58,734 nucleotides of DNA from the NCBI RefSeq assembly GCF_000934755.1, contig NZ_JYNP01000037.1:1-58734 (forward strand). The letters are read 5' to 3'. Made by a program: the position numbers and the translations under genes. Positions 3,481 to 38,649 of the stretch are shown here, piece by piece. The DNA is from Desulfonatronovibrio magnus (GTDB lineage Bacteria > Desulfobacterota > Desulfovibrionia > Desulfovibrionales > Desulfonatronovibrionaceae). The notes under the pieces were generated by a model. That model worked only from the letters and a program-made list of their open reading frames with translations. It was not told the DNA's origin and did no database searches. Each line of letters starts with the position of its first letter. Position 1 is the first letter of the stretch.

Positions 3481-5910
3481 ATGAAAGATTTAAGGCATCC
3501 CTGCATTTTCGCCTGCCTTGCTCTGGGCATGGCTTCACAAGTCTCTCAGGTCCTGATCCTGCGTGAACTGCTGATGGTCTTTCATGGAAACGAGCTTTCC
3601 ATCGGAACCATCCTCTGTGCATGGATGGTCTGGGTAGGTGTGGGCAGCAGTGCTGCTGCCAGAATAATTCACAGGTTTGCCAAGCCTGTTGCCTTGCTCA
3701 AAGCCAGCACACTAACTGCCTTTATCTGCCTGCCTTTGACAATCTATGTCTGCAGGTCCCTGAGACAAATCCTTGATGTTGCCCCAGGCACTTATCTGTC
3801 CCTGTGGGAAATGATCCAGTCCTCATTTTTGGCCATAAGCATTATAGGCATCCTGCTGGGAGCGCAGTTTGTAATTCTGTCCAGGGTATGGCGGGAACTG
3901 GATCAGAAGCACGACACTTCAGGCGCTTCCAAGGTTTATATTGTTGAAGCTGCAGGCAACATGCTGGGCGGGCTTATCTTCACTTTCATTCTTGTCCATG
4001 TCCTGAACTCCTTTCAAACAGCTGTTCTTGTCATGGCAGCCATGCTCCTGCCGGTCTGGATTATGGCTTCTTCCCGAAACAATACAGTACTTTCACCATT
4101 TTCAGGCAGCAGGAAAGCGTGGCTGGTTCTTCCATTAACAGCCGTCTTGCTTATGCCTGCCATGATCTTCATTGATGAGCATGCCTGGACAAAAAAATGG
4201 CAGCGCCTGACCCCTGAGCATGAACTGCAGGAAATTCTGCAATCCAAACATGGCAGTATTGCAGTGCTCAAACGCAAGGATCAATACAGTTTTTTTCAGA
4301 GCGGGCATCTCATGTTCTCCACGGCCGGGCCTGAAACCCTGGTACCGGGATTTGAAGAGCAGGAAGCTGTTGTTCTTGCTCACTTTGCCATGACCCAGCA
4401 CCCTTCCCCTGAAAAAGTCCTGCTCATTGGAGGGGGACTCAGAGGAGTACTGGCGGAAATACTCAAGCATCCAGTGGCTGAGGTCAGCTATGTTGAGCTG
4501 GACCCGGTGCTGACCAGATCTGCCTTAAAACGCGCCCCACCAGCAACAGTGGATGCAGTAAATGATCCCAGGGTGAACATGGTTCATTCTGATGCCAGGC
4601 TGTATGTCAAGCAGGCCCGGGGCAGCTATGACCTGATCATTGTGGATGCTCCGGACCCGGCAACTTCTGTACTCAACAGATTTTATACCAGAGAGTTTTA
4701 TGATGAGGCCAAAAGGATTTTAAGACCAGGCGGAGTTCTGGCAACAGGGCTCATGAGTACACATGACTTACGCTCCAGGTCCGTAGCCAATCGCAATGCA
4801 GCAGTTTACCATACCCTTGCATCGGTTTTTGAGAAAGTTTTGCCCGTGGGAGACAGTTTTCTTTTTTATTTTGCCACTGATCAGCCGGGACAAATTTCCC
4901 ACGACCCTGCGCTGCTGAGAAACCGCTTTGAGAATCGCAGCATTCAGGCCCAGGGGTTTTCCGGACTTCATTTTCATCTTCTGCTGGAAGACTCCCAGCT
5001 CAGAAGAGTGAACTGGACCATTCGCAATCATGGCCGCTCAAGCCTTGCCCATCTTCAAGGTCCCTCCCCTGTTCCTGTAAATCCTGAACCGGTTGCAGTT
5101 CAGAAAGAGGCCGAGCACAGGCTTCCACCGCCAGACAGCAGATACTTTATCAACTCAGATTTCAGGCCCATTGTTTACTTCTACACCCTCATGTTCTGGG
5201 ATGAAGTGACCCGGTCAGGACAAAGCCGGACCCTTGCCCATTTGCTCCAGGTCCAGTTCTGGTGGTTTTTTCCGGTTATTCTTTTTCCTGTTGTCATTGT
5301 GGCCGGACTGAAAATGCTTAAGCCGGGAAAGCACTCCCTGCCGGGTCTGCGTTTTGCAGTCCTGTTTACTGCTTTCAGTACAGGATTTTCCACCATGGTC
5401 ATGCAGGTAGCCTTGATTTTTTCATTTCAGAGCATATATGGTTTTATATACGAAACAGTGGGGCTGATTATTGCCATGTTCATGACCGGGCTGGCAGCTG
5501 GTGCTTACGCAGCCAGCCAGAAAATCAAGAATAAATCCAGCCTGACCATTCTGGGACGGATTCAGCTGCTCATGGCTGCTGCTTCCGCTCTCATGGCGCT
5601 CATCATTCCTGTGACTGCAGGCATGCACAGCCCGGCAGTAATTTTCTCTGTCTTCTCCCTGCTTACTCTAAGCGCAGGCTTTATCAACGGAATTGACTTT
5701 CCCCTGACTGCAGCCTGCTATATGAGCCTTGGAAATACAGCGGAAAAATCAGCAGGAAGGGTCTACGCCACTGAGCTGGGTGGTGCATGTGCAGGAGCTC
5801 TTGTGGCTGGAGTAGCAGCAGCGCCGGTGCTGGGTATACACGCCTGTTTCATGTTGGCGGCTCTTTCCAGCTGTGCTGCCTGTTGTTCAATTTTCATCAC
5901 CAGGAGATAG
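3481..5910 (+). CDS. Fused MFS-like membrane protein / spermidine synthase-like protein
   Basis: This product of about 809 residues has an N-terminal block of hydrophobic helices (roughly 1-240), a soluble aminopropyltransferase/methyltransferase-like domain (about 260-480) and a second block of helices (about 590-809). The soluble domain has the SAM/decarboxylated-SAM binding glycine motif (LLIGGGLRGVLAEI), an acidic strand end (YVELDP) and the DAPDP-x8-FYTREFYDEA segment typical of spermidine synthase relatives. It matches the known fused spermidine synthase/transporter family. The polyamine product is not proven, and substrates for such fusions are generally unknown. The open frame extends upstream to a TTG at 3367, but the ATG at 3481 starts a sensible membrane protein. 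The radical SAM gene starts one base after its stop, so they form an operon. Confidence 0.8.
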   Translation: MKDLRHPCIFACLALGMASQVSQVLILRELLMVFHGNELSIGTILCAWMVWVGVGSSAAARIIHRFAKPVALLKASTLTAFICLPLTIYVCRSLRQILDVAPGTYLSLWEMIQSSFLAISIIGILLGAQFVILSRVWRELDQKHDTSGASKVYIVEAAGNMLGGLIFTFILVHVLNSFQTAVLVMAAMLLPVWIMASSRNNTVLSPFSGSRKAWLVLPLTAVLLMPAMIFIDEHAWTKKWQRLTPEHELQEILQSKHGSIAVLKRKDQYSFFQSGHLMFSTAGPETLVPGFEEQEAVVLAHFAMTQHPSPEKVLLIGGGLRGVLAEILKHPVAEVSYVELDPVLTRSALKRAPPATVDAVNDPRVNMVHSDARLYVKQARGSYDLIIVDAPDPATSVLNRFYTREFYDEAKRILRPGGVLATGLMSTHDLRSRSVANRNAAVYHTLASVFEKVLPVGDSFLFYFATDQPGQISHDPALLRNRFENRSIQAQGFSGLHFHLLLEDSQLRRVNWTIRNHGRSSLAHLQGPSPVPVNPEPVAVQKEAEHRLPPPDSRYFINSDFRPIVYFYTLMFWDEVTRSGQSRTLAHLLQVQFWWFFPVILFPVVIVAGLKMLKPGKHSLPGLRFAVLFTAFSTGFSTMVMQVALIFSFQSIYGFIYETVGLIIAMFMTGLAAGAYAASQKIKNKSSLTILGRIQLLMAAASALMALIIPVTAGMHSPAVIFSVFSLLTLSAGFINGIDFPLTAACYMSLGNTAEKSAGRVYATELGGACAGALVAGVAAAPVLGIHACFMLAALSSCAACCSIFITRR

Positions 5911-5911
5911 T

Positions 5912-7075
5912 ATGCCAAAGAAATATTTGTTATCAAGAAAGGATTTTCTCAAGACCTGCACAGTCGGTGCAGGCGCCTTATGTCTGACAGGAATGCCTGC
6001 AATGAGGACGTCGGCCTCTCACGCCGGCAACCCGGACAGCACAGGCGGAGGCAAGGGCTTTACCAGTCCTGTTGAAGCCAGCTGGTATGAACAGGAAGAT
6101 GGGCAAAAAGCCAGATGCCTGTTGTGCCCCAATGAATGTCTTCTGGAACAGGGTGAAAGGTCACTCTGCAGGGTACGCGAGAACCGAAACGGTAAGCTGT
6201 ATACCCTGGCCCATTCTAATCCGGCCCTGATCCAGCAGGACCCTGTGGAGAGAAAGCCTTTTTTTCATGTGGTGCCCGGATCCAGAGCCTTGTCTGTGTC
6301 TACTGCAGGCTGCAATCTCAGGTGCAAATTCTGCCAGGTGTGGGACATGGCCCTGGTAAGGCCTGAAGATATACATGCTTACCACATGCCTCCTGATCAG
6401 GTCATTGAACAGGCCAAAGCAGCAGGGCTCAGATCCATGAGCTATGCCTTTGGCGAACCAGTTGTTTTTTTTGAATACATGATGGAGATGGCTGAACTGG
6501 CTATGGAAGCAGGCCTGCTCAACCTTGTTCATACTGCAGCTTATATCAAGGAAAAGCCTCTGACGTACATTTGTCAGGCAATGGATGCTGCCAATGTGGA
6601 TCTTAAAGGATTCAATGCTGATTTTTATCGCAGATATGTAGGAGGAGAGTTAAGTAATGTGCTGAACACCCTGCTCTTGATGAAAAAGTCAGGCATTCAC
6701 GTAGAAGTGACCACCATTGTCATTCCGGGCATTAATGACTCGCCCGCAGAAATTGCGGAAATGTGCAAATGGATAGTCAGGGAACTCGGCCCTGATACAC
6801 CCTTGCACTTTGCCAGGTTTTATCCCCTGTACAGGTTGTCAGGTCTACCCAGAACACCTGTATCCACTCTGGAAATGGCCAGGGAAAAAGCCATGGAGGC
6901 AGGCATAAACTATGTTTACATAGCCAAGGTCACCGGACATGAAGCTGAAAGCACGTTCTGTCCGGGATGCAAAGCCAGGATCATCACCCGCCTGGGATTT
7001 ATCGTGGACAGGGTGGAGATCAGCAATGGACAATGTGATCATTGCGGACACAAGATCCCCGGCATCTGGGCTTAA
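5912..7075 (+). CDS. amrS: AmrS-type radical SAM protein with Tat-like signal
   Basis: The product has 387 residues. Residues 134-141 hold the radical SAM triad CNLRCKFC that binds a [4Fe-4S] cluster and SAM. An upstream Cys set (C69, C72, C76, C86) and a C-terminal double CxxC (CPGC...CDHC) fit the AmmeMemoRadiSam radical SAM family, whose substrate is not settled. The start follows a CAGGAG site one base after the upstream stop. Oddly, the N-terminus reads SRKDFLK followed by a hydrophobic stretch (TVGAGALCLTG), which resembles a twin-arginine signal with Lys in place of the second Arg. The AmrB partner lies about 31 kb away at 37849. The family call is strong; export is inferred. Confidence 0.85.
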   Translation: MPKKYLLSRKDFLKTCTVGAGALCLTGMPAMRTSASHAGNPDSTGGGKGFTSPVEASWYEQEDGQKARCLLCPNECLLEQGERSLCRVRENRNGKLYTLAHSNPALIQQDPVERKPFFHVVPGSRALSVSTAGCNLRCKFCQVWDMALVRPEDIHAYHMPPDQVIEQAKAAGLRSMSYAFGEPVVFFEYMMEMAELAMEAGLLNLVHTAAYIKEKPLTYICQAMDAANVDLKGFNADFYRRYVGGELSNVLNTLLLMKKSGIHVEVTTIVIPGINDSPAEIAEMCKWIVRELGPDTPLHFARFYPLYRLSGLPRTPVSTLEMAREKAMEAGINYVYIAKVTGHEAESTFCPGCKARIITRLGFIVDRVEISNGQCDHCGHKIPGIWA

Positions 7076-7077
7076 GG

Positions 7078-8136
7078 TCAGCTTACCAGACGTTTATGAA
7101 TCATATACTGGGACATGGATCTTTCATCAAGATTGGTCAGTCCGGCCTCAATGGCCCAGTCTATGGCTTCAACAAACTCTCTTGAGTTTATGGCTCTGGA
7201 AATCCTCTCATACTCAAAAGCCATATGTTCCACCCGGTACTGAGACATGATATTCACATAAGTATCTGCAGGCAGATTATCCGCCATCCACAACACAAAT
7301 TCTCTTGTTCCGGCCACCCTGTTGGGCATGACAAGATGTCTGACCATCAACCCTCTGAGGGCGATCCCACTCCTGTCAGTAACCAGGTTTCCGGTCTGTC
7401 TGTACATTTCAAGGATGGACTGCTGAGCGTGTTTCGGATAATCCCCCGCCCCCTCAAGCACATACTTTGCCGATTCATCCGGGTCCATGAACTTCAAGTC
7501 TGGCAGATAAATATCGACAATGCCATCCAGCAGCCTGATATTTTCCACAAGTTCATACCCTCCGGTGTTGTAACACAGGGGCAGACGCAATCCTTTTTCA
7601 CGGGCTATCATCACTGCCTTGAGAATGTTGGGCATGACATGAGTCGGGGTGACCAGGTTGATATTATGACAGCGTCTGCGCTGCAGATCCAGCATCATAT
7701 CTGCCAACTGCTCTTCACTGACTTCCCTTCCCCGTCCTTCATGGGCTATGGGCCAGTTCTGGCAGAACACGCACCTTAAATTGCAGTTGGAAAAAAAGAT
7801 GGTCCCTGATCCTCCGCGTCCCACAAGGGGGAGCTCCTCTCCAAAATGAGGACCAGCACTGTGCACCACTGCCCTTGCCGGGGCCTGACAAAATCCCAGT
7901 TGTCCATTAAGCCGGTCAACTCCGCACTTATGAGGACACAGGTCGCACTTTTTCATTTTGTCCATGGCCTGCTCCACCCTGGACTTAAGAGTACTCTGCC
8001 GCGCCAGCATGGCATATGCCGGCTCCCAGTTTTTGGCATCGGCTGCTGGTTTTCCGGCAAGAACCTGACTGCTGAACAAAAGCGATCCCGAAGTCAGGCA
8101 AAGGGTCTTTAAAAAATTTCTGCGCGTGGTATTCAT
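7078..8136 (-). CDS. PflX-type radical SAM protein with twin-arginine signal
   Basis: This 352-residue protein has the radical SAM motif C118, C122, C125 (CNLRCVFC) and an N-terminal Cys cluster (C64, C67, C71, C83), as in the COG1313/PflX group of PFL-activase-like proteins of unknown substrate. The first residues, TTRRNFLK, are a consensus Tat motif, followed by a hydrophobic stretch ending in VLAG, so secretion of a folded Fe-S protein is predicted. The start has a good GGAGG site. The gene ends two bases from the end of the AmrS-type gene on the other strand. Despite opposite orientation, the two share the Cys quartet and a Tat-like leader, which suggests a related role. Confidence 0.85.
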   Translation of the reverse strand: MNTTRRNFLKTLCLTSGSLLFSSQVLAGKPAADAKNWEPAYAMLARQSTLKSRVEQAMDKMKKCDLCPHKCGVDRLNGQLGFCQAPARAVVHSAGPHFGEELPLVGRGGSGTIFFSNCNLRCVFCQNWPIAHEGRGREVSEEQLADMMLDLQRRRCHNINLVTPTHVMPNILKAVMIAREKGLRLPLCYNTGGYELVENIRLLDGIVDIYLPDLKFMDPDESAKYVLEGAGDYPKHAQQSILEMYRQTGNLVTDRSGIALRGLMVRHLVMPNRVAGTREFVLWMADNLPADTYVNIMSQYRVEHMAFEYERISRAINSREFVEAIDWAIEAGLTNLDERSMSQYMIHKRLVS

Positions 8137-8402
8137 TATTCTTAACCTCCACAGAATCAGCGGTCTGTCTCATCCTGGATAAATGAAAAACAGTTCACCG
8201 CCTCCCTGGCAGGGTTGATCCAGGGTTTACTCCTTTAGATCTGCCATTTTTTCAGGGAGCAATACGCGTTTAAAAGTCAATAGGGGAATGCCCCAGGTTT
8301 CGGCAAAGTATTTCTTTCCATTCAGGTTGTGGGCACGGCCCATATTAGAAACGCGTAATGCTCCTTATTTTCAAAAGTGCGGAAGTGCACAGCGAAGCTC
8401 AT

Positions 8403-12595: not shown

Positions 12596-15500
12596 ATGAA
12601 TCATTATTTCAGGTATGTTTATTTGGTTTTCACTTTGTTTATAGTTAATGCTTCTCTTATTGTTTTTTCGCATAATTATGCAGCAGCTTCACAATTTGTA
12701 AGTGGTGCAGATAATCGAACGTATGCTGTAATGGAGGAGGTTTTTCCAAGCACAGGTAAGGTATTTTATTCAGGCCGTGAACTTTTTGTCCCATTGGTTG
12801 TGCAAAGCGAATATTGGCAGACATTTGTGGAGATAGCCAATGGAAGTGACCGTCCTCAGACTTATTTTGTTCAGGGTTTTAATCATGATGGCCGACAGGT
12901 TCCGGATCCGGGAGATGAGTCTCTGGTTAAAGGCGGTAAAAAAATTGATGTTAGCCCGGACTCAGCAGTGGTGTTTGGCTTGGATGAACTTTTTGACCTT
13001 CCTTTTCTTTCAAAAGTGACAGCCATACGCATCTATAGTGATGAAGATCATGGTCCGAATGCGTTAAATACAGTGTCCATTGGCTACCGGCCTGTGGGTG
13101 GTGGTGAAAATGTTTTGCTTTCAGTGCCGGTTACGGACCCGCATCAACGTGTTTTTGTGGAACGCTTCATACAGGAAGACATAGTTGTTACAGCCTGGCA
13201 ACCTTTTGTAGTTGCTGCGAATATCAGTCCATTTCCTATGGATATATGGATAAATATTCAGGGTGATGATGAGGTTTTGTCTGCTCAGGTTGCTCAAAAT
13301 CTTGCCCCATATGCTCAAATCATGCTCCATCCTCAAGATGATTTTTTAACAGAAATTGTTGATATGACCAGTAAAGGCTTCAGTGGAGCTGAACTGACAG
13401 CTTATATAGCCGGAACAATGGACCCTCTCGCAGGATTGAGTGCCAGTCTTATTCTTCTCGGCAAAGGTTCAGAAGGAGAAGATGTACTAGCCGGGTGGAT
13501 GCTTCGAGGTGATTCATTAAAGGGTGACGCATCCGGGACTGCACTCAGGCGCGGCACTTTAAATGAGATTGGCAATGAATGGTTTTTGCCGCTGCTGATA
13601 GCGCATGAAGAGGGCTTCTGGTCCCGGCTTGGGTATTTCAACGGAGACGCTGCTGATCACATTCTCTGGCTGGACCATCATCTTCCTGATGGCAACCTGG
13701 TGCAGACACTGCAGCTTAATGCACCTGCTTTCCAGACCAGTGAATGGAATTTACAGGATGCCGGGATGGACCTTTCCAAGGGAGGGATGGTCAGGGTGCG
13801 GGTTCAGGATTTGACCCTCGGTGGCAGTGCATATTGGATGTTTGGTTACAACGAGCACGATTCAGCACAGCCACGTGTGCTTACTGCAGCCCAGGCTCCG
13901 ACCTGGATGGATGCTTCAACGCGTCTTCTTCTAACTGGAGTTTCAACCCATGAGGAAGAAACCATCCTGAATCTGATTAACCCCGGATCCGCCCCGATCA
14001 CCTGCACCATTGTGCTTATGGATCTCCAAGGCCAGCCCTCGGGGCAAAAATCCATTGAAATGGCTGGCAGGGCAAGCACTGTTTTGACCCTTCCCGCGGA
14101 AAAAGCTCCTTTTCAGGGACTGATTGAAATTACTGCAGATCAGCCCGTCATGGGTATGACCACCCGCATTGCCTCAGATATTTCAGGTACACGTCTTCAT
14201 GCCTCGAGCGCCCTGTTTTTATCAGGTGAAGAGGAGGCTGCACCCGAGCAGGAGTATACGGTTACCATTACTGTGCATGACCATTTCAGTGGTAAACCAG
14301 TTTCCGGAGTCTATTACGCCAGTCCGTATGGCGTGCAAGGGCCTACAGACGAATCCGGCCATGTAACATTCATCCTCAACAGCACCCAGATGCGTTTTTT
14401 CAGCCTGTTTACCAGGCCTGACTCTTCAATAGATTACATGACCCGCCAGCTGGACTGGAGTCAATTTGTTCCAGAAAATGATCATTATACCCTGAACCTG
14501 ACCCTGGCCCGCAAAGATCAGCCCCTTCCTGAAGTTGTGGCTGCCCGCCTGATGCCTCATGGCTCCATTGAAGAGTTTGACCTTCTTACCGAACCTGTAG
14601 ATTTTATGCGTCACAAAAAAAATACAGCCCGCCTTGTGCTGGATGTAAACAATCCCGGATGGAATATAACCGGGTATCGCATTCAGCAGGGTGACAAAGC
14701 AATATTCAGCTCCAGTGCAGACTTTAGTTTACTAACCCCTGGGATGCAGTTTGTTGCCAACAGGCCTGTTTTCGCCATCATTGAGACCGATTTAAGAACA
14801 TTTGCCGTACCCCTGGGCCTGCGTATACGCGACAATCCCGACTGGCCGGACCCCATGAATACGTTGCCGTCTACTGAAGCATTCCAGGTTGGCGATCAGG
14901 TCCCATTTTTTGACAAATCTACTGTTGGCATAGAAATTCTGCCTGTGTCGGTCAACCTGGTTTATGAAGATAACAAGCTAATCCTTTTTTTTGGACTTAA
15001 AGATGGATTTGAAGATGGAAAACTTGTCACTCCATCCAAAGTTATCAGCGATATGAAAGAAGCAGGCAAAAATTACACTCAGGCCTTACGCAAGTTGCAG
15101 GAGTGGGGTGTCAGGCCTCAGCCCATGCAGAATACAACAACCTGGAACGCCGAGGTAAGCGCCATGGGGTTTGTGAAATTCAGCAAGGATGAACATGGAG
15201 ACTTTGAGGTAATTGACGGCGGGGGATATATTTTCGGATCAGGCTCTCTGACCCATACCAGACCTTTTGTTGTGGTTATAGTTCCCTGCTTTATCTCTGG
15301 GACCGTTGGTGCAGAGGTCAAGGCTGAATTTGAGTACCACTCCGCAATGCGCAAGATGGAAGAACTGTTCAGCAATATCATTTTTACTTTTACTCCCAAT
15401 CTTGAATTGGAGGGTGGAGTTGGAATGAAAGGAGTTGCTTCCGTCAGTATAGCCGGCAAGGGGGACATCCCTATTGAATATAGACCAGTTAGCGATCTTT

Positions 15501-18148
15501 TTAAGGTTGATTTGCATCTCGGTGCTGAATTCAGGATTGTTGTCAACTCCTTTCTGCACTATGAAAAAGTTATTGCAGAGGATACCTGGCAGCTTTACTC
15601 CAATCACACGGCAAATCCCCAAGCCCTGACTCTGGAAAAAAATCAGTCAGCTGATATTTTTGATATGGCTGCCTACAAACCTTCAGTTCGCTCCACTGAT
15701 ATCCCTCAATGGTTGGGATATGAGGATGCGCCTCCGAGGCTGGGTCCGGTCAAAGAGCAGGTTGTCATCCGCAATGTCCTTGATGGAACGGAACCCCGTT
15801 TGTTGCGTTTTGGCAATCGAGAGATTTTATTGTGGATAGACGATGATCCCCAGCGTGATGCTGCCAACAGGTCAGCCCTCATGTATATGGTGCGCTGGGT
15901 GGGAGGAAAATTTGATGAACGACCAAGACATGTTCTGGATCAGGGCACCAGTGATGTGTCTTTTCATGCAGTGGTCCACAAAGGACAACTTTTTGTGGCA
16001 TGGCAGAACATCAATAAAAAAATTGAACTGTCCGACAGCATGCTTGAGGAAATGTGCAGACACAGTCAGGTACATGTAGCGCGCTATATTCCTGGTTGGG
16101 GTTTCAGGGATCATGTCACTTCACTGCCTGAAATGTACGAAAGCAATCCCCGTCTGGCATCAGACGGAGAACATCTCGGGCTTTTCTATCTGCGAAACAG
16201 CGATTACAATTATTTTCGCAACACAGGGCTTAACGAGATTGTTGCCAGTGTGTACGATGGATGGGGCTGGCGTAATTCAGAAGTAGTCATGCAGGCAACA
16301 GAGCACGCGGTTGTTGCCTATGCTGCAGCCATGGACGGCAGCACGCCAGTGGCTGCTGTTGTCATAGACTCTGATGGTGACCTGCGTACCATTGATGATC
16401 GGGTTCTAAAACTTTATCGATCCGGAATCAGCAGGGATGTGGTTGCCAAACCTGACATTACCGGACATCCTGTTTTTGCAGGACACCAGAACACCGCGGC
16501 CTTATTCTGGTTCCAGGACCATGATATATATTACCAGAAAGATATTTTTCAAGGTAAAGCCAGGACAGAACGTGTGTTTGGCAAACATGTAGAAGCGATA
16601 ACTGACGAATATGACCTGATGCTTGATGCAGATGGTCAGGTCCGTGCAATTTTGTGGACTGACAGCGATATGCAGCTCAACGCTGAAGCGGTGGCATCTT
16701 TCTATATAGACAGGGGCGATCATGGTCAATGGGGACAACCAGTGCCCCTGACAAAATCCGGGAGGCGGGTTGAAGCCCCTCAGGGATTCATGGCCGATGA
16801 CGGTTCTGCAGTGTTGACCTACCGTGTGCTAAGCTTTGATATATCCAGTCAACAATACCGACGCAGCAATAGTGATCTCGTGGTAGCGGATGTAACCCCT
16901 TCCATTGATCTGGCATTGGCGGAAAATGCCATTTTAATGCATTTTGCTCCTCAGCAGCCCGGGACTGACCATCATTTTGATTTTATTGTTTCCAACTTTG
17001 GCACTGTGCTTTGCAATGGACTGATTCTGGAAGTTATGAATGTTCGAGGCGAGGTAGTTAATACCATGACCTTCAGCGATTTACTTCTACCAGGTGAGAG
17101 CATTATTTTGACTGGTAAATATCCAGTGCCTGATCCACTTGTAAAACATAATTTCAGCATTCGCGTCAAACCACTTAACGGCAAGGATATTGGTCTTTCT
17201 TCCAAAACAGCTTCAACTACTGTGGGTATTGCCGATGTCAGAATTGTAAAGGCCTCCATCTGGAGACCAGAGCCTAACACCCGGCATACCAGAGTGCGGG
17301 TGCGCAACATGAACTATGTCAGGATTCCTGAAGCTGTAGTGGTTGTTACTGAAAATGACAGAGTCATCAAAAAAAGTGATCCTTTCTCCCTGGAACCTCT
17401 GCAGGCCCACAATTATGAGTTTGTAGAAAATGTGGATGAGAGCAGTGATCCAACCTACAATCACAGACGGAGCTATGCTCTGGAAATTCAAGGGGTTGAT
17501 GCCTTAGATACAGTTATATATCACAGCGTTTCCATCAATCCATTCAGGCTTACAGCCCTGACCCCTTCCATTCATGGAGCAAGTGGTCAGGATGGATCCA
17601 TCAAAGTTGATATTGCAGTAAAGAATAACCATCCCGTAAAGAGATCAGGAGAGCTTCTTGTGGAGCTTCTGGATGATCAGGAAAAAGTAGTGGACAGTGT
17701 GCGGCAGGTGGTAAGTCAGCAATCCAACTCTGCAGAATTGATAACAAAATATTTCAGCATCAATGGCAGAGCAGATGGCTATTCTGTGCGCGTATCCATA
17801 CCCCGCGACACCCTTGGATATGATCCGGGGCCTGTATACAGCGGGCCGTCCCTTCTGGCTCCGGACATGGATATTGCCCGGGTAGTGCTGGATGGTGCGG
17901 AAATACACAACAGGGCCTCCCGTATAATGGACTGGGCTGAGTCAATTCTTCCAGATTTGTTTCCTGAGCAAGGAAGAATTGTCATTCACGAAGATAAAGT
18001 GTATTATAGATATTATCCTGATGCAGGAGTATATCTTGCCGGCTATGAGGGACAACTTCTTTATTACAATCCATCAGAACATCAGGAAATTATTCATCTT
18101 GGGACCATTGATGAACTGTTGATGCATGCTGCATCTGCAGGTTTTTAG
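12596..18148 (+). CDS. Giant secreted multi-domain protein of unknown function (1850 aa)
   Basis: A Sec signal (about 1-32, ending AAAS) starts this 1850-residue protein. Residues 33-540 are beta-rich with a possible internal repetition. A carboxypeptidase-regulatory-like segment lies near 552-610 (SGKPVSGVYY). A Gly-rich beta region is at about 850-980, and a propeller-like region at about 1035-1420. CARDB-like Ig domains occupy about 1435-1755 (FDFIVSNFGTVLCNG). The C-terminus (about 1770-1850) has the pattern WAESILPDLFP then YYRYYPDAGVYLAGYEG, a module I recall at the end of other secreted bacterial proteins. There are no catalytic motifs and no LPXTG or autotransporter barrel. AGAGGA precedes the ATG. 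It is probably an extracellular or surface protein; type II secretion could export it. It is flanked by family E repeats. Confidence 0.8.
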   Translation: MNHYFRYVYLVFTLFIVNASLIVFSHNYAAASQFVSGADNRTYAVMEEVFPSTGKVFYSGRELFVPLVVQSEYWQTFVEIANGSDRPQTYFVQGFNHDGRQVPDPGDESLVKGGKKIDVSPDSAVVFGLDELFDLPFLSKVTAIRIYSDEDHGPNALNTVSIGYRPVGGGENVLLSVPVTDPHQRVFVERFIQEDIVVTAWQPFVVAANISPFPMDIWINIQGDDEVLSAQVAQNLAPYAQIMLHPQDDFLTEIVDMTSKGFSGAELTAYIAGTMDPLAGLSASLILLGKGSEGEDVLAGWMLRGDSLKGDASGTALRRGTLNEIGNEWFLPLLIAHEEGFWSRLGYFNGDAADHILWLDHHLPDGNLVQTLQLNAPAFQTSEWNLQDAGMDLSKGGMVRVRVQDLTLGGSAYWMFGYNEHDSAQPRVLTAAQAPTWMDASTRLLLTGVSTHEEETILNLINPGSAPITCTIVLMDLQGQPSGQKSIEMAGRASTVLTLPAEKAPFQGLIEITADQPVMGMTTRIASDISGTRLHASSALFLSGEEEAAPEQEYTVTITVHDHFSGKPVSGVYYASPYGVQGPTDESGHVTFILNSTQMRFFSLFTRPDSSIDYMTRQLDWSQFVPENDHYTLNLTLARKDQPLPEVVAARLMPHGSIEEFDLLTEPVDFMRHKKNTARLVLDVNNPGWNITGYRIQQGDKAIFSSSADFSLLTPGMQFVANRPVFAIIETDLRTFAVPLGLRIRDNPDWPDPMNTLPSTEAFQVGDQVPFFDKSTVGIEILPVSVNLVYEDNKLILFFGLKDGFEDGKLVTPSKVISDMKEAGKNYTQALRKLQEWGVRPQPMQNTTTWNAEVSAMGFVKFSKDEHGDFEVIDGGGYIFGSGSLTHTRPFVVVIVPCFISGTVGAEVKAEFEYHSAMRKMEELFSNIIFTFTPNLELEGGVGMKGVASVSIAGKGDIPIEYRPVSDLFKVDLHLGAEFRIVVNSFLHYEKVIAEDTWQLYSNHTANPQALTLEKNQSADIFDMAAYKPSVRSTDIPQWLGYEDAPPRLGPVKEQVVIRNVLDGTEPRLLRFGNREILLWIDDDPQRDAANRSALMYMVRWVGGKFDERPRHVLDQGTSDVSFHAVVHKGQLFVAWQNINKKIELSDSMLEEMCRHSQVHVARYIPGWGFRDHVTSLPEMYESNPRLASDGEHLGLFYLRNSDYNYFRNTGLNEIVASVYDGWGWRNSEVVMQATEHAVVAYAAAMDGSTPVAAVVIDSDGDLRTIDDRVLKLYRSGISRDVVAKPDITGHPVFAGHQNTAALFWFQDHDIYYQKDIFQGKARTERVFGKHVEAITDEYDLMLDADGQVRAILWTDSDMQLNAEAVASFYIDRGDHGQWGQPVPLTKSGRRVEAPQGFMADDGSAVLTYRVLSFDISSQQYRRSNSDLVVADVTPSIDLALAENAILMHFAPQQPGTDHHFDFIVSNFGTVLCNGLILEVMNVRGEVVNTMTFSDLLLPGESIILTGKYPVPDPLVKHNFSIRVKPLNGKDIGLSSKTASTTVGIADVRIVKASIWRPEPNTRHTRVRVRNMNYVRIPEAVVVVTENDRVIKKSDPFSLEPLQAHNYEFVENVDESSDPTYNHRRSYALEIQGVDALDTVIYHSVSINPFRLTALTPSIHGASGQDGSIKVDIAVKNNHPVKRSGELLVELLDDQEKVVDSVRQVVSQQSNSAELITKYFSINGRADGYSVRVSIPRDTLGYDPGPVYSGPSLLAPDMDIARVVLDGAEIHNRASRIMDWAESILPDLFPEQGRIVIHEDKVYYRYYPDAGVYLAGYEGQLLYYNPSEHQEIIHLGTIDELLMHAASAGF

Positions 18149-37848: not shown

Positions 37849-38649
37849 TTAACTGATGATCATTCCAGCATATCCCACTACCTGTGAGTAGTCTTGATTC
37901 ACTTCTCCAGAAGTGGCGTAGGATACAAGCTCGGCTTTCTTTGCTCCAAGTTCCTTGACGCATGCCATACCCATTACCATGGGTAATACTCCACACATGG
38001 AAATATTATTGGCGCGTACTGTCTCATACAAGCCTTCCGGATTAAGTTCCAGGATCTGTTCTAGAGCTTTGGCATCAACTTTACTGGCATTTTCATGCGA
38101 AATATAATGACTCATATCAGTACTGACAACTATGCTCACTTCCAGGTCTTTCTGCCTGACAGCATGGGCAATTGCCTTTCCAGCAGCCAGAAGATTGTTA
38201 AGATCAGTCTGAGATACAGCTACAGGGACCATGGAAAAATCAGCCCTGATTACGGACAAAAATGGCAAGATAACCTCTAATGAGTGTTCGCCCGCATGAG
38301 CATCATAATCTGCGGTAAAACCATCAATTCCCAGCAGCACGGATGACAACTCCTGATCGACTTTTATCTCGCCACCTGGGATAATCCAGGATCCATCCGG
38401 CCAGACCGAGATCTTTGCTCCCCGTCCTGTGTGGTTGGGACCCAGCAGAACTACCCTGGATGCCAGATTAGCCCTGGCCAGAGTCCGGCCTGCTACTTTA
38501 CCGGAAAAAATATAACCTGCGTGAGGCACCATGGCCAGCAGCGTCTTCTGGCTGTCACGCTCTCCATGTAAGTAACCAGCTACCTTATCTTTCAGTGCAG
38601 CTTCATTGCCAGGATAAAACTGCCCTGCTACTACTGGCTGTCTATTCAT
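37849..38649 (-). CDS. amrB: AmmeMemoRadiSam system protein B (MEMO1 family)
   Basis: This 266-residue protein has the MEMO1/AmrB signature: VVAGQFYPG at the start, VPHAGYIFSG, LLGPNHTGRG, HAGEHSLEVILPFL, STDMSHY and a conserved Cys in MCGVLPMV. The His and Cys residues line the metal-type pocket shared with extradiol dioxygenases. Its reaction in bacteria is not established; genetically it belongs with AMMECR1-like and radical SAM partners. The radical SAM partner type is at 5912, not adjacent. A GAGGAG site precedes the ATG. It stands alone, downstream of the TPR gene on the same strand (45 bases). Confidence 0.93.
   Translation of the reverse strand: MNRQPVVAGQFYPGNEAALKDKVAGYLHGERDSQKTLLAMVPHAGYIFSGKVAGRTLARANLASRVVLLGPNHTGRGAKISVWPDGSWIIPGGEIKVDQELSSVLLGIDGFTADYDAHAGEHSLEVILPFLSVIRADFSMVPVAVSQTDLNNLLAAGKAIAHAVRQKDLEVSIVVSTDMSHYISHENASKVDAKALEQILELNPEGLYETVRANNISMCGVLPMVMGMACVKELGAKKAELVSYATSGEVNQDYSQVVGYAGMIIS

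Follow-up and report, generated by a model that had tools for sequence, protein, structure and literature searches.

Two Tat-leader radical SAM proteins of Desulfonatronovibrio magnus and an apparently extracytoplasmic branch of the AmmeMemoRadiSam system

We analysed a 58,734-nucleotide stretch of Desulfonatronovibrio magnus DNA, called the window below, which is the whole of contig NZ_JYNP01000037.1 (one of 134 contigs of a 4.8 Mb genome) and carries two adjacent genes for radical S-adenosylmethionine (SAM) proteins, RS1 and RS2. Both proteins begin with leaders of the twin-arginine translocation (Tat) type. The pair is part of a larger system that includes the membrane protein SPD, encoded directly upstream, and the exported Memo-AMMECR1 proteins of relatives, and its sequences apparently define a widely conserved, extracytoplasmic branch of AmmeMemoRadiSam. 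The reading to which we give somewhat better than even chances is that RS1 and RS2 are exported within this branch and would cleave SAM reductively outside the cytoplasm, modifying an envelope substrate. A location outside the cytoplasm is very probable by itself, and for SAM radical chemistry at that location the balance lies between even and slightly favourable. The cassette has the following features.

3481 to 5910, plus strand: SPD, a protein with 14 transmembrane (TM) segments and a spermidine-synthase-like domain of the SAM/decarboxylated-SAM-type fold (PF01564, 90.4 bits).
4165 to 5262, plus strand: SPD domain region, 366 residues between TM7 and TM8, aminopropyltransferase-like and predicted extracytoplasmic (hydropathy, positive-inside count, PDB relatives).
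5902 to 5906, plus strand: RS1 Shine-Dalgarno sequence AGGAG, 5 nt before the ATG.
5912 to 7075, plus strand: RS1, Tat-leader AmrS-type radical SAM enzyme, 387 aa (TIGR04337).
5912 to 6025, plus strand: RS1 Tat-type leader, SRKDFLK plus hydrophobic (h-) region, with a possible signal peptidase I site ASHA^G (TIGR01409).
6116 to 6169, plus strand: RS1 Cys quartet C69/C72/C76/C86 (alignment of 13).
6311 to 6334, plus strand: RS1 radical SAM motif CNLRCKFC, with C134, C138 and C141 (alignment; PF04055).
7078 to 8136, minus strand: RS2, Tat-leader PflX-type radical SAM protein, 352 aa (PF04055, 51.8 bits; alignment).
8056 to 8136, minus strand: RS2 Tat leader, TTRRNFLK plus h-region, with a possible signal peptidase I site VLA^G (TIGR01409; lipobox comparison).
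7888 to 7947, minus strand: RS2 Cys quartet C64/C67/C71/C83 (alignment of 10).
7762 to 7785, minus strand: RS2 radical SAM motif CNLRCVFC, with C118, C122 and C125 (alignment of 10).
8145 to 8150, minus strand: RS2 Shine-Dalgarno sequence GGAGGT, 8 nt before the ATG.

The first-pass annotation of this DNA had described two convergent radical SAM genes with a two-base gap, Tat-like leaders on both products and intact CxxxCxxC motifs preceded by a common Cys quartet, and all of these descriptions hold. The RS1 and RS2 genes (5912-8136) converge with their stop codons separated by the two bases GG at 7076-7077, and a single base lies between the SPD stop and the RS1 start on the same strand. The RS1 N-terminus reads MPKKYLLSRKDFLKTCTVGAGALCLTGMPAMRTSASHA^G and contains the RK variant of the twin-arginine motif, while that of RS2 reads MNTTRRNFLKTLCLTSGSLLFSSQVLA^G and contains the full RR motif; the cleavage sites (^), ASHA^G in RS1 and VLA^G in RS2, were assigned by eye. 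Both leaders pass the Tat model TIGR01409 (TAT_signal_seq; cut-off 16.7 bits), the RS1 leader piece with 20.2 bits and the RS2 leader with 18.8 bits. The genome encodes TatC (261.9 bits; TatA/B lay outside the search), and Tat is a pathway that carries proteins already folded with their cofactor.

That these N-termini resemble leaders by chance or through misassigned starts is extremely improbable. Internal start codons from which translation would omit the leader exist in both genes, but they have 4-base Shine-Dalgarno matches at most or none, and the longest Shine-Dalgarno matches of both genes stand at the leader-bearing starts. In shuffled N-termini, the pattern [ST]R[RK]xF[LIVMFK]K followed by a hydrophobic stretch, which was devised after the sequences had been seen, occurred 0 times (RS1) and once (RS2) per 200,000 shuffles, and leaders recur across 38 family codes.

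The catalytic motifs of both proteins are well preserved. RS1 passes TIGR04337 with 342.2 bits against a cut-off of 220; for RS2 no PflX model was present among the NCBIfam or Pfam matches, and we take it to be a PflX-type (COG1313) protein. Neither the radical SAM cysteines nor the upstream quartet vary in the alignments of 13 RS1 and of 10 RS2 sequences, both of which include the window, and the RS2 motif CNLRCVFC is invariant in the same 10 sequences except N119. All 13 RS1 sequences also share the GEP segment and the C-terminal Cys pairs without change, and the DLK segment is almost invariant. RS1 aligns with the PFL-activating enzyme over profile positions 137-292, which include the LDLK segment with SAM-binding residues of that enzyme. 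The cluster sites of RS1 and RS2 thus look constrained in the manner of enzymes. This conservation, together with the alignment of DLK with the LDLK of the activase, argues against an alternative that we consider unlikely, namely that the proteins are exported yet perform no radical SAM chemistry. In the low-potential envelope of anaerobes, the Fe-S clusters would then serve periplasmic electron transfer, or the fold would bind a ligand, for example a product derived from SAM. On the side of this alternative, a source of SAM outside the cytoplasm is a gap in the catalytic reading.

The same genome encodes leaderless counterparts of both enzymes. Contig C114 carries a leaderless AmrS paralogue with 36% identity to RS1 and a leaderless PflX-type paralogue with 47% identity to RS2, the Cys quartet and CxxxCxxC being common to both PflX-type proteins. 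A leaderless Memo gene (37849-38649, minus strand; TIGR04336, 300.8 bits) is located in the window some 30 kb away from the cassette, and a match to AMMECR1 was found on contig C121, apart from Memo. Since leaderless AmrS, PflX-type protein and Memo as well as AMMECR1 are present, the exported pair comes on top of what appears to be a complete cytoplasmic set. The presence of leaderless versions of both enzymes counts against a further alternative, that the leaders act without export as membrane anchors or Tat proofreading tags and that the enzymes work with ordinary SAM on the cytoplasmic face. We regard this alternative as quite improbable, although it accords with the textbook placing of SAM in the cytoplasm. 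The first-pass annotation had left the choice between chemistry outside and an anchoring or quality-control role undecided. Our data favour real export because of the signal-peptidase-type sites, the lipoprotein-type Cys in most close relatives of RS2, the partners with export signals or a predicted outward orientation and the c-haem motifs in one AmrS clade; SAM chemistry outside would be the hypothetical part of that choice.

Leader-bearing AmrS proteins extend well beyond the window. All 13 aligned RS1 sequences, that of the window among them, retain the leader, and a profile search with RS1 (threshold 1e-60) placed AmrS, leaderless proteins counted too, in at least 365 of 395 genomes. A Tat-like leader is present in all 30 of the best phylum loci, window included (21 recognised by script and 9 by eye), a fraction that, like the other phylum fractions, is no estimate of prevalence because the loci were selected by similarity to the window's family. 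The nine leaders recognised by eye are mostly of the KR type ('TKREFLK'), and a wider pattern recovers all of them but L084, which was not extracted by that script. The search for homologues with and without the leader yielded, over all loci, 114 distinct AmrS with a leader (38 family codes plus two named records) versus 51 without one by the script criterion, the latter including L189 and L233, both cut by contig ends. One locus, L030, scored barely above the leader threshold and was reset to leaderless by eye.

The leader also follows descent. In a tree of 86 AmrS sequences, the 71 leader-bearing and 15 leaderless proteins are parted by one branch with support of 100/100, the leaderless ones all coming from the window's order. 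After removal of 9 near-duplicates, a 124-row tree built by a quick method added 25 leaderless AmrS loci from other families and 20 further loci, mostly picked for a late-starting profile match; on this tree the leader label changes 4 times, compared with about 37 times for shuffled labels, the exceptions being L186/L187/L188/L191 and L190/L202. Neither of the two findings that the first-pass annotation had named as speaking against its proposal was made. Both leaders pass a Tat model, and leaderless homologues in the same genus do not occur in the clade of RS1: the AmrS of this clade in G001 and G002 retain the leader, and the leaderless same-genus AmrS in the tree (G000, G003, G004 and G005) form a separate paralogous clade. 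TatC was found in 40 of the 45 leader-bearing genomes examined. AmrS genes occur in tandem in L202, where one bears a leader and one does not, and in L203, whose genome (G067) has five AmrS-type matches.

The leaders of RS2 relatives provide a second indication of export. The RS2 profile gave 17 full-length leader-bearing matches, window included, at E<=3e-164, with the next match at 6.5e-133; RS1 is present in the fetched stretch for 12 of the 16 other than the window. In 11 of 13 leader-bearing RS2 proteins, window counted in, a Cys closes the hydrophobic stretch (FFAGC, LFAAC, FTAGC and others), and a PS51257-like lipoprotein pattern fits 6 of the 13; L036, truncated at a contig end, and L053, which has no leader, are not part of this set. 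No lipobox Cys follows the h-region of RS2 in the window, which has VLA^G instead. Judged by the leader sequences, RS2 of most close relatives is probably retained as a Tat lipoprotein, and RS2 of this genome is probably processed by signal peptidase I. The RS1 leaders of L035 and L045 also end in a lipoprotein-type Cys. Switching between lipoprotein and signal-peptidase-I endings within one family is expected for leaders that are used in export, and the processing-type sites and lipoprotein-type Cys fit poorly with leaders that act without export. Lipidation of RS2 would also anchor the protein, but on the outer face of the membrane. TIGR01409 matches 8 of 10 RS2 sequences at E<=10. The RS2 homologue of L045 (4709-6349, plus strand; 546 aa) has an extra C-terminal region compared with the others. 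The L035 cassette (PWRN01000060.1), with Cys ending both radical SAM leaders, comes from a bin labelled Syntrophomonadaceae (Bacillota), a label from which we make no claim of a Gram-positive host because the locus is a metagenome bin with unverified binning.

The leader-bearing genes keep recurring company. A convergent RS1-RS2 pair is found in 12 loci, 10 from 60 relatives and two from named metagenome bins, and SPD is present in the stretch for 10 of them (L035-L038 and L040-L045; none in L039 or L046). Within about 1.5 kb a partner accompanies 33 of 42 leader-bearing loci, window included, versus 0 of 43 leaderless ones; among the 42, the partners are RS2 in 23, SPD in 14 and Memo/AMMECR1 in 7. 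Across 40 wider phylum loci we found SPD in 22, Memo and/or AMMECR1 in 22 (four with AMMECR1 only) and RS2 in 5.

The Memo and AMMECR1 neighbours commonly bear export signals themselves. Memo-AMMECR1 fusions that are about 500 aa long and begin with signal peptides adjoin Tat-leader AmrS and SPD in L050, L125, L131, L138, L145, L146, L206 and others; the L206 protein has a lipoprotein-type leader by eye. The two fusions tested, L145 and L050, pass TIGR04336, TIGR04335 and the Pfam models, and the lone AMMECR1 of L148 passes TIGR04335; the remaining Memo/AMMECR1 calls are based on BLAST similarity. Of 25 open reading frames (ORFs) for Memo or AMMECR1, 22 have a strong hydrophobic segment ahead of the domain, with L120 one more in a corrected stretch, and no such segment was seen before the domain in the AMMECR1 ORFs of L127 and L134. 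The AmmeMemoRadiSam set therefore bears export signals in many families. Signal peptides on Memo-AMMECR1 are difficult to reconcile with leaders that do not export, and Memo-AMMECR1, like SPD with its nucleoside/SAM-type fold, would be odd company for a simple electron carrier. In L186, L187 and L188 a leaderless AmrS adjoins a Memo, plus AMMECR1 in L187, bearing N-terminal membrane anchors. Glycyl-radical-enzyme activation, considered since both proteins are activase-like, was set aside: the recurring neighbours are SPD, RS2, Memo and AMMECR1, the other neighbours of the phylum loci having had no systematic annotation and no systematic search for a glycyl-radical partner. Elsewhere in the window, at 12596-18148 on the plus strand, is a 1850-aa ORF with a hydrophobic N-terminus.

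SPD was analysed at the level of its family. In the window the mechanical ORF starts at TTG 3367 (847 aa), and the likely start is ATG 3481 (809 aa). SPD exceeds the cut-offs of PF01564 (spermine/spermidine synthase; cut-off 22.9 bits) and NF037959 (fused MFS/spermidine synthase; 51.1 bits against 40) and falls below the equivalog cut-off of PRK03612 (181.1 bits against 472). A profile of 35 homologues contains 14 hydrophobic segments, arranged 7 + 7 around the 366-residue region, and 28 of the 35 single sequences have seven segments before the longest loop. Lysine plus arginine (K+R) residues are more numerous in the N-terminal-side loops in 35 of 35 sequences, though over 123 versus 54 columns; per column the N-terminal side is higher in 33 of 35 (not in L150 and L153), about twofold on average. 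This excess places the spermidine-synthase-like domain outside, so that an outward orientation is the more likely one on present sequence evidence, an orientation that a purely cytoplasmic role of the leaders would not lead one to expect. The nearest PDB relatives of the domain are spermidine synthases, for example 1uir (E=1.9e-28), and Glu339 and Asp371 (numbering from 3481) are conserved. The glycine-rich motif of SPD is GGGLR, at the site where spermidine synthases have GGGDG, and Asp residues around the active site are variable. Classical spermidine synthesis by SPD is therefore doubtful, and its ligand may be SAM, decarboxylated SAM or a product. The replacement of GGGDG and the variable Asp residues also lend something to the possibility that the exported proteins perform no radical SAM chemistry.

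One AmrS clade carries a motif that bears directly on location. The Ccm and Ccs systems attach c-type haem covalently, and they do so exclusively on the outer face of the cytoplasmic membrane. A search with the AmrS of L147 in 119 genomes of the class of G260 gave 30 loci, and in 16 of these, from six family codes, a CxxCH motif lies between the Tat leader and the Cys quartet (L147, L149, L150, L211-L213, L215-L218, L220, L221, L224, L226, L227 and L232); in all 16 a His stands seven residues before the quartet. The motif is absent in the other 14, of which L233 is cut by a contig end and L229 retains the His, and it is likewise absent from RS1 of the window. In L147, L149 and L150 the CxxCH-containing AmrS genes adjoin Memo-AMMECR1 and SPD. 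The CxxCH motifs speak for export against leaders retained in the cytoplasm, and they would equally suit an electron-transfer protein of the non-catalytic kind. Presence of CxxCH and of the His differs between close AmrS relatives. Just beyond SPD in L150, a 172-aa ORF (14795-15313, plus strand) with four CxxCH motifs is likely a multihaem cytochrome, and the AmrS of the same genome has CxxCH.

The leaders, conserved motifs, cassette, co-inheritance, predicted topology and CxxCH motifs are supported by the sequences; catalysis outside, SAM delivery by SPD, the electron source and the envelope substrate are inferred. In the scheme that we propose, RS1 and RS2 would each be folded with their Fe-S clusters in the cytoplasm and then transported by Tat, RS1 being released or retained outside. 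There they would act together with SPD, whose domain is predicted to share that location; a secreted Memo-AMMECR1 fusion would join them in many other families. SAM could be loaded before export, or SPD could provide or hold on to SAM, or clear away its products. The cluster would be reduced by periplasmic low-potential electrons, from carriers like cytochrome c3, a periplasmic carrier of sulphate reducers, or from c-type haem on AmrS itself in the one clade, and the product would be a modified envelope component. We put at even chances the more complete version in which an entire radical SAM pathway operates outside, comprising AmrS, Memo, AMMECR1 and, in some lineages, a PflX-type lipoprotein, with SAM supplied by SPD and electrons from c-type haem or periplasmic low-potential carriers.

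Several observations weigh against this proposal. The RS1 leader of the window has RK rather than RR, and those of the window's order are mostly RK or RN among the 13 aligned, with RR in L035 and L045 only and KR in L036. Just 3 of the 10 RS1 leaders scanned reach the TIGR01409 cut-off (L047 exactly) and 5 of 10 have no match; the RK motif and these weak or missing matches are points for leaders without export. The same holds for similar cassettes with leaderless relatives: leaderless AmrS fall within the leader clade or next to it (L186, L187, L188, L190, L191 and L202), some of them adjoining exported Memo or SPD. TatC was not found in 5 of the 45 leader-bearing genomes (G054, G422, G192, G145 and G130), all of them multi-contig drafts, and the phylum loci were picked by their similarity to the window's family. 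Neither SPD, Memo, AMMECR1 nor RS2 was found in the stretch examined for 12 of the 40 wider phylum loci. An exported Memo-AMMECR1 is missing from the window's cassette; Memo, leaderless, and AMMECR1 lie at separate sites in this genome. The topology of SPD is based on hydropathy and charge; the domain flanks match the inside loops in K+R richness (4.14 in 30 columns), and a cruder flank-only count favours outside in 16 of 35 sequences with 5 ties, which is no support. SAM is a cytoplasmic metabolite, and an exporter of it would be hypothetical, as would catalysis and the presence of SAM outside; export itself is predicted from sequence.

Radical SAM enzymes are among the largest enzyme superfamilies and are regarded as proteins of the cytoplasm or organellar matrix because SAM is made there. 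Memo and AMMECR1 are conserved up to humans, and we know of no settled molecular function for either; Memo-AMMECR1 systems were reportedly treated by Burroughs in 2019. In the literature searched, which left most subscription papers uncovered, including that 2019 Memo paper, we came across no Tat-exported radical SAM enzyme. A table of the Rhizobium etli extracellular fraction includes a Radical SAM InterPro entry, a possible counter-example (PMC2964644). Elsewhere, a 2020 eLife paper mentions radical-SAM domains of 'recently-described Memo-Ammecr1 systems' (PMC7159879), Memo-like domains are described as fused to recognition elements of ribosomally synthesised and post-translationally modified peptides (RiPPs) (PMC12710340), and a radical SAM gene appears merely as a neighbour (PMC10924467). 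If our proposal is true, an exported branch over dozens of families would use SAM, or a SAM-loaded enzyme, in the envelope, and one would then ask how SAM is exported, how low-potential electrons reach the outside and what is modified; it would be the first extracytoplasmic SAM radical chemistry known to us. By uniting the three proteins with a membrane partner, the exported cassettes would also offer a fresh way to approach Memo and AMMECR1, and the clade with the c-haem motif is directly testable.

Among known systems, RS1 resembles the radical SAM component of AmmeMemoRadiSam (TIGR04335 A/AMMECR1, TIGR04336 B/Memo, TIGR04337 radical SAM), whose model it passes. For the classic system no settled function is known to us; the branch described here differs from it in that the components of relatives bear export signals and a 14-TM SPD is added, and in that the window's cassette has RS2 and no Memo-AMMECR1. 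RS2 is distinguished from other PflX-type proteins (COG1313) by its Tat leader, by the lipoprotein-type Cys often present in relatives and by the adjoining Tat-leader AmrS. The closest solved structure to RS1 by sequence is the PFL-activating enzyme (3c8f/3cb8; profile E=7.2e-11), which shares the radical SAM core but is a cytoplasmic protein of 245 aa without a leader or N-terminal extension. Like the membrane polyamine aminopropyltransferases (PRK03612; NF037959), SPD combines TM segments with a spermidine-synthase-like domain, from which group it departs by a second 7-TM block after the domain and an altered substrate motif. Finally, Tat-exported Fe-S proteins and Tat lipoproteins share with RS1 and RS2 the type of leader and a cofactor folded before export, whereas we found no radical SAM protein described as a Tat substrate in the literature that we searched.

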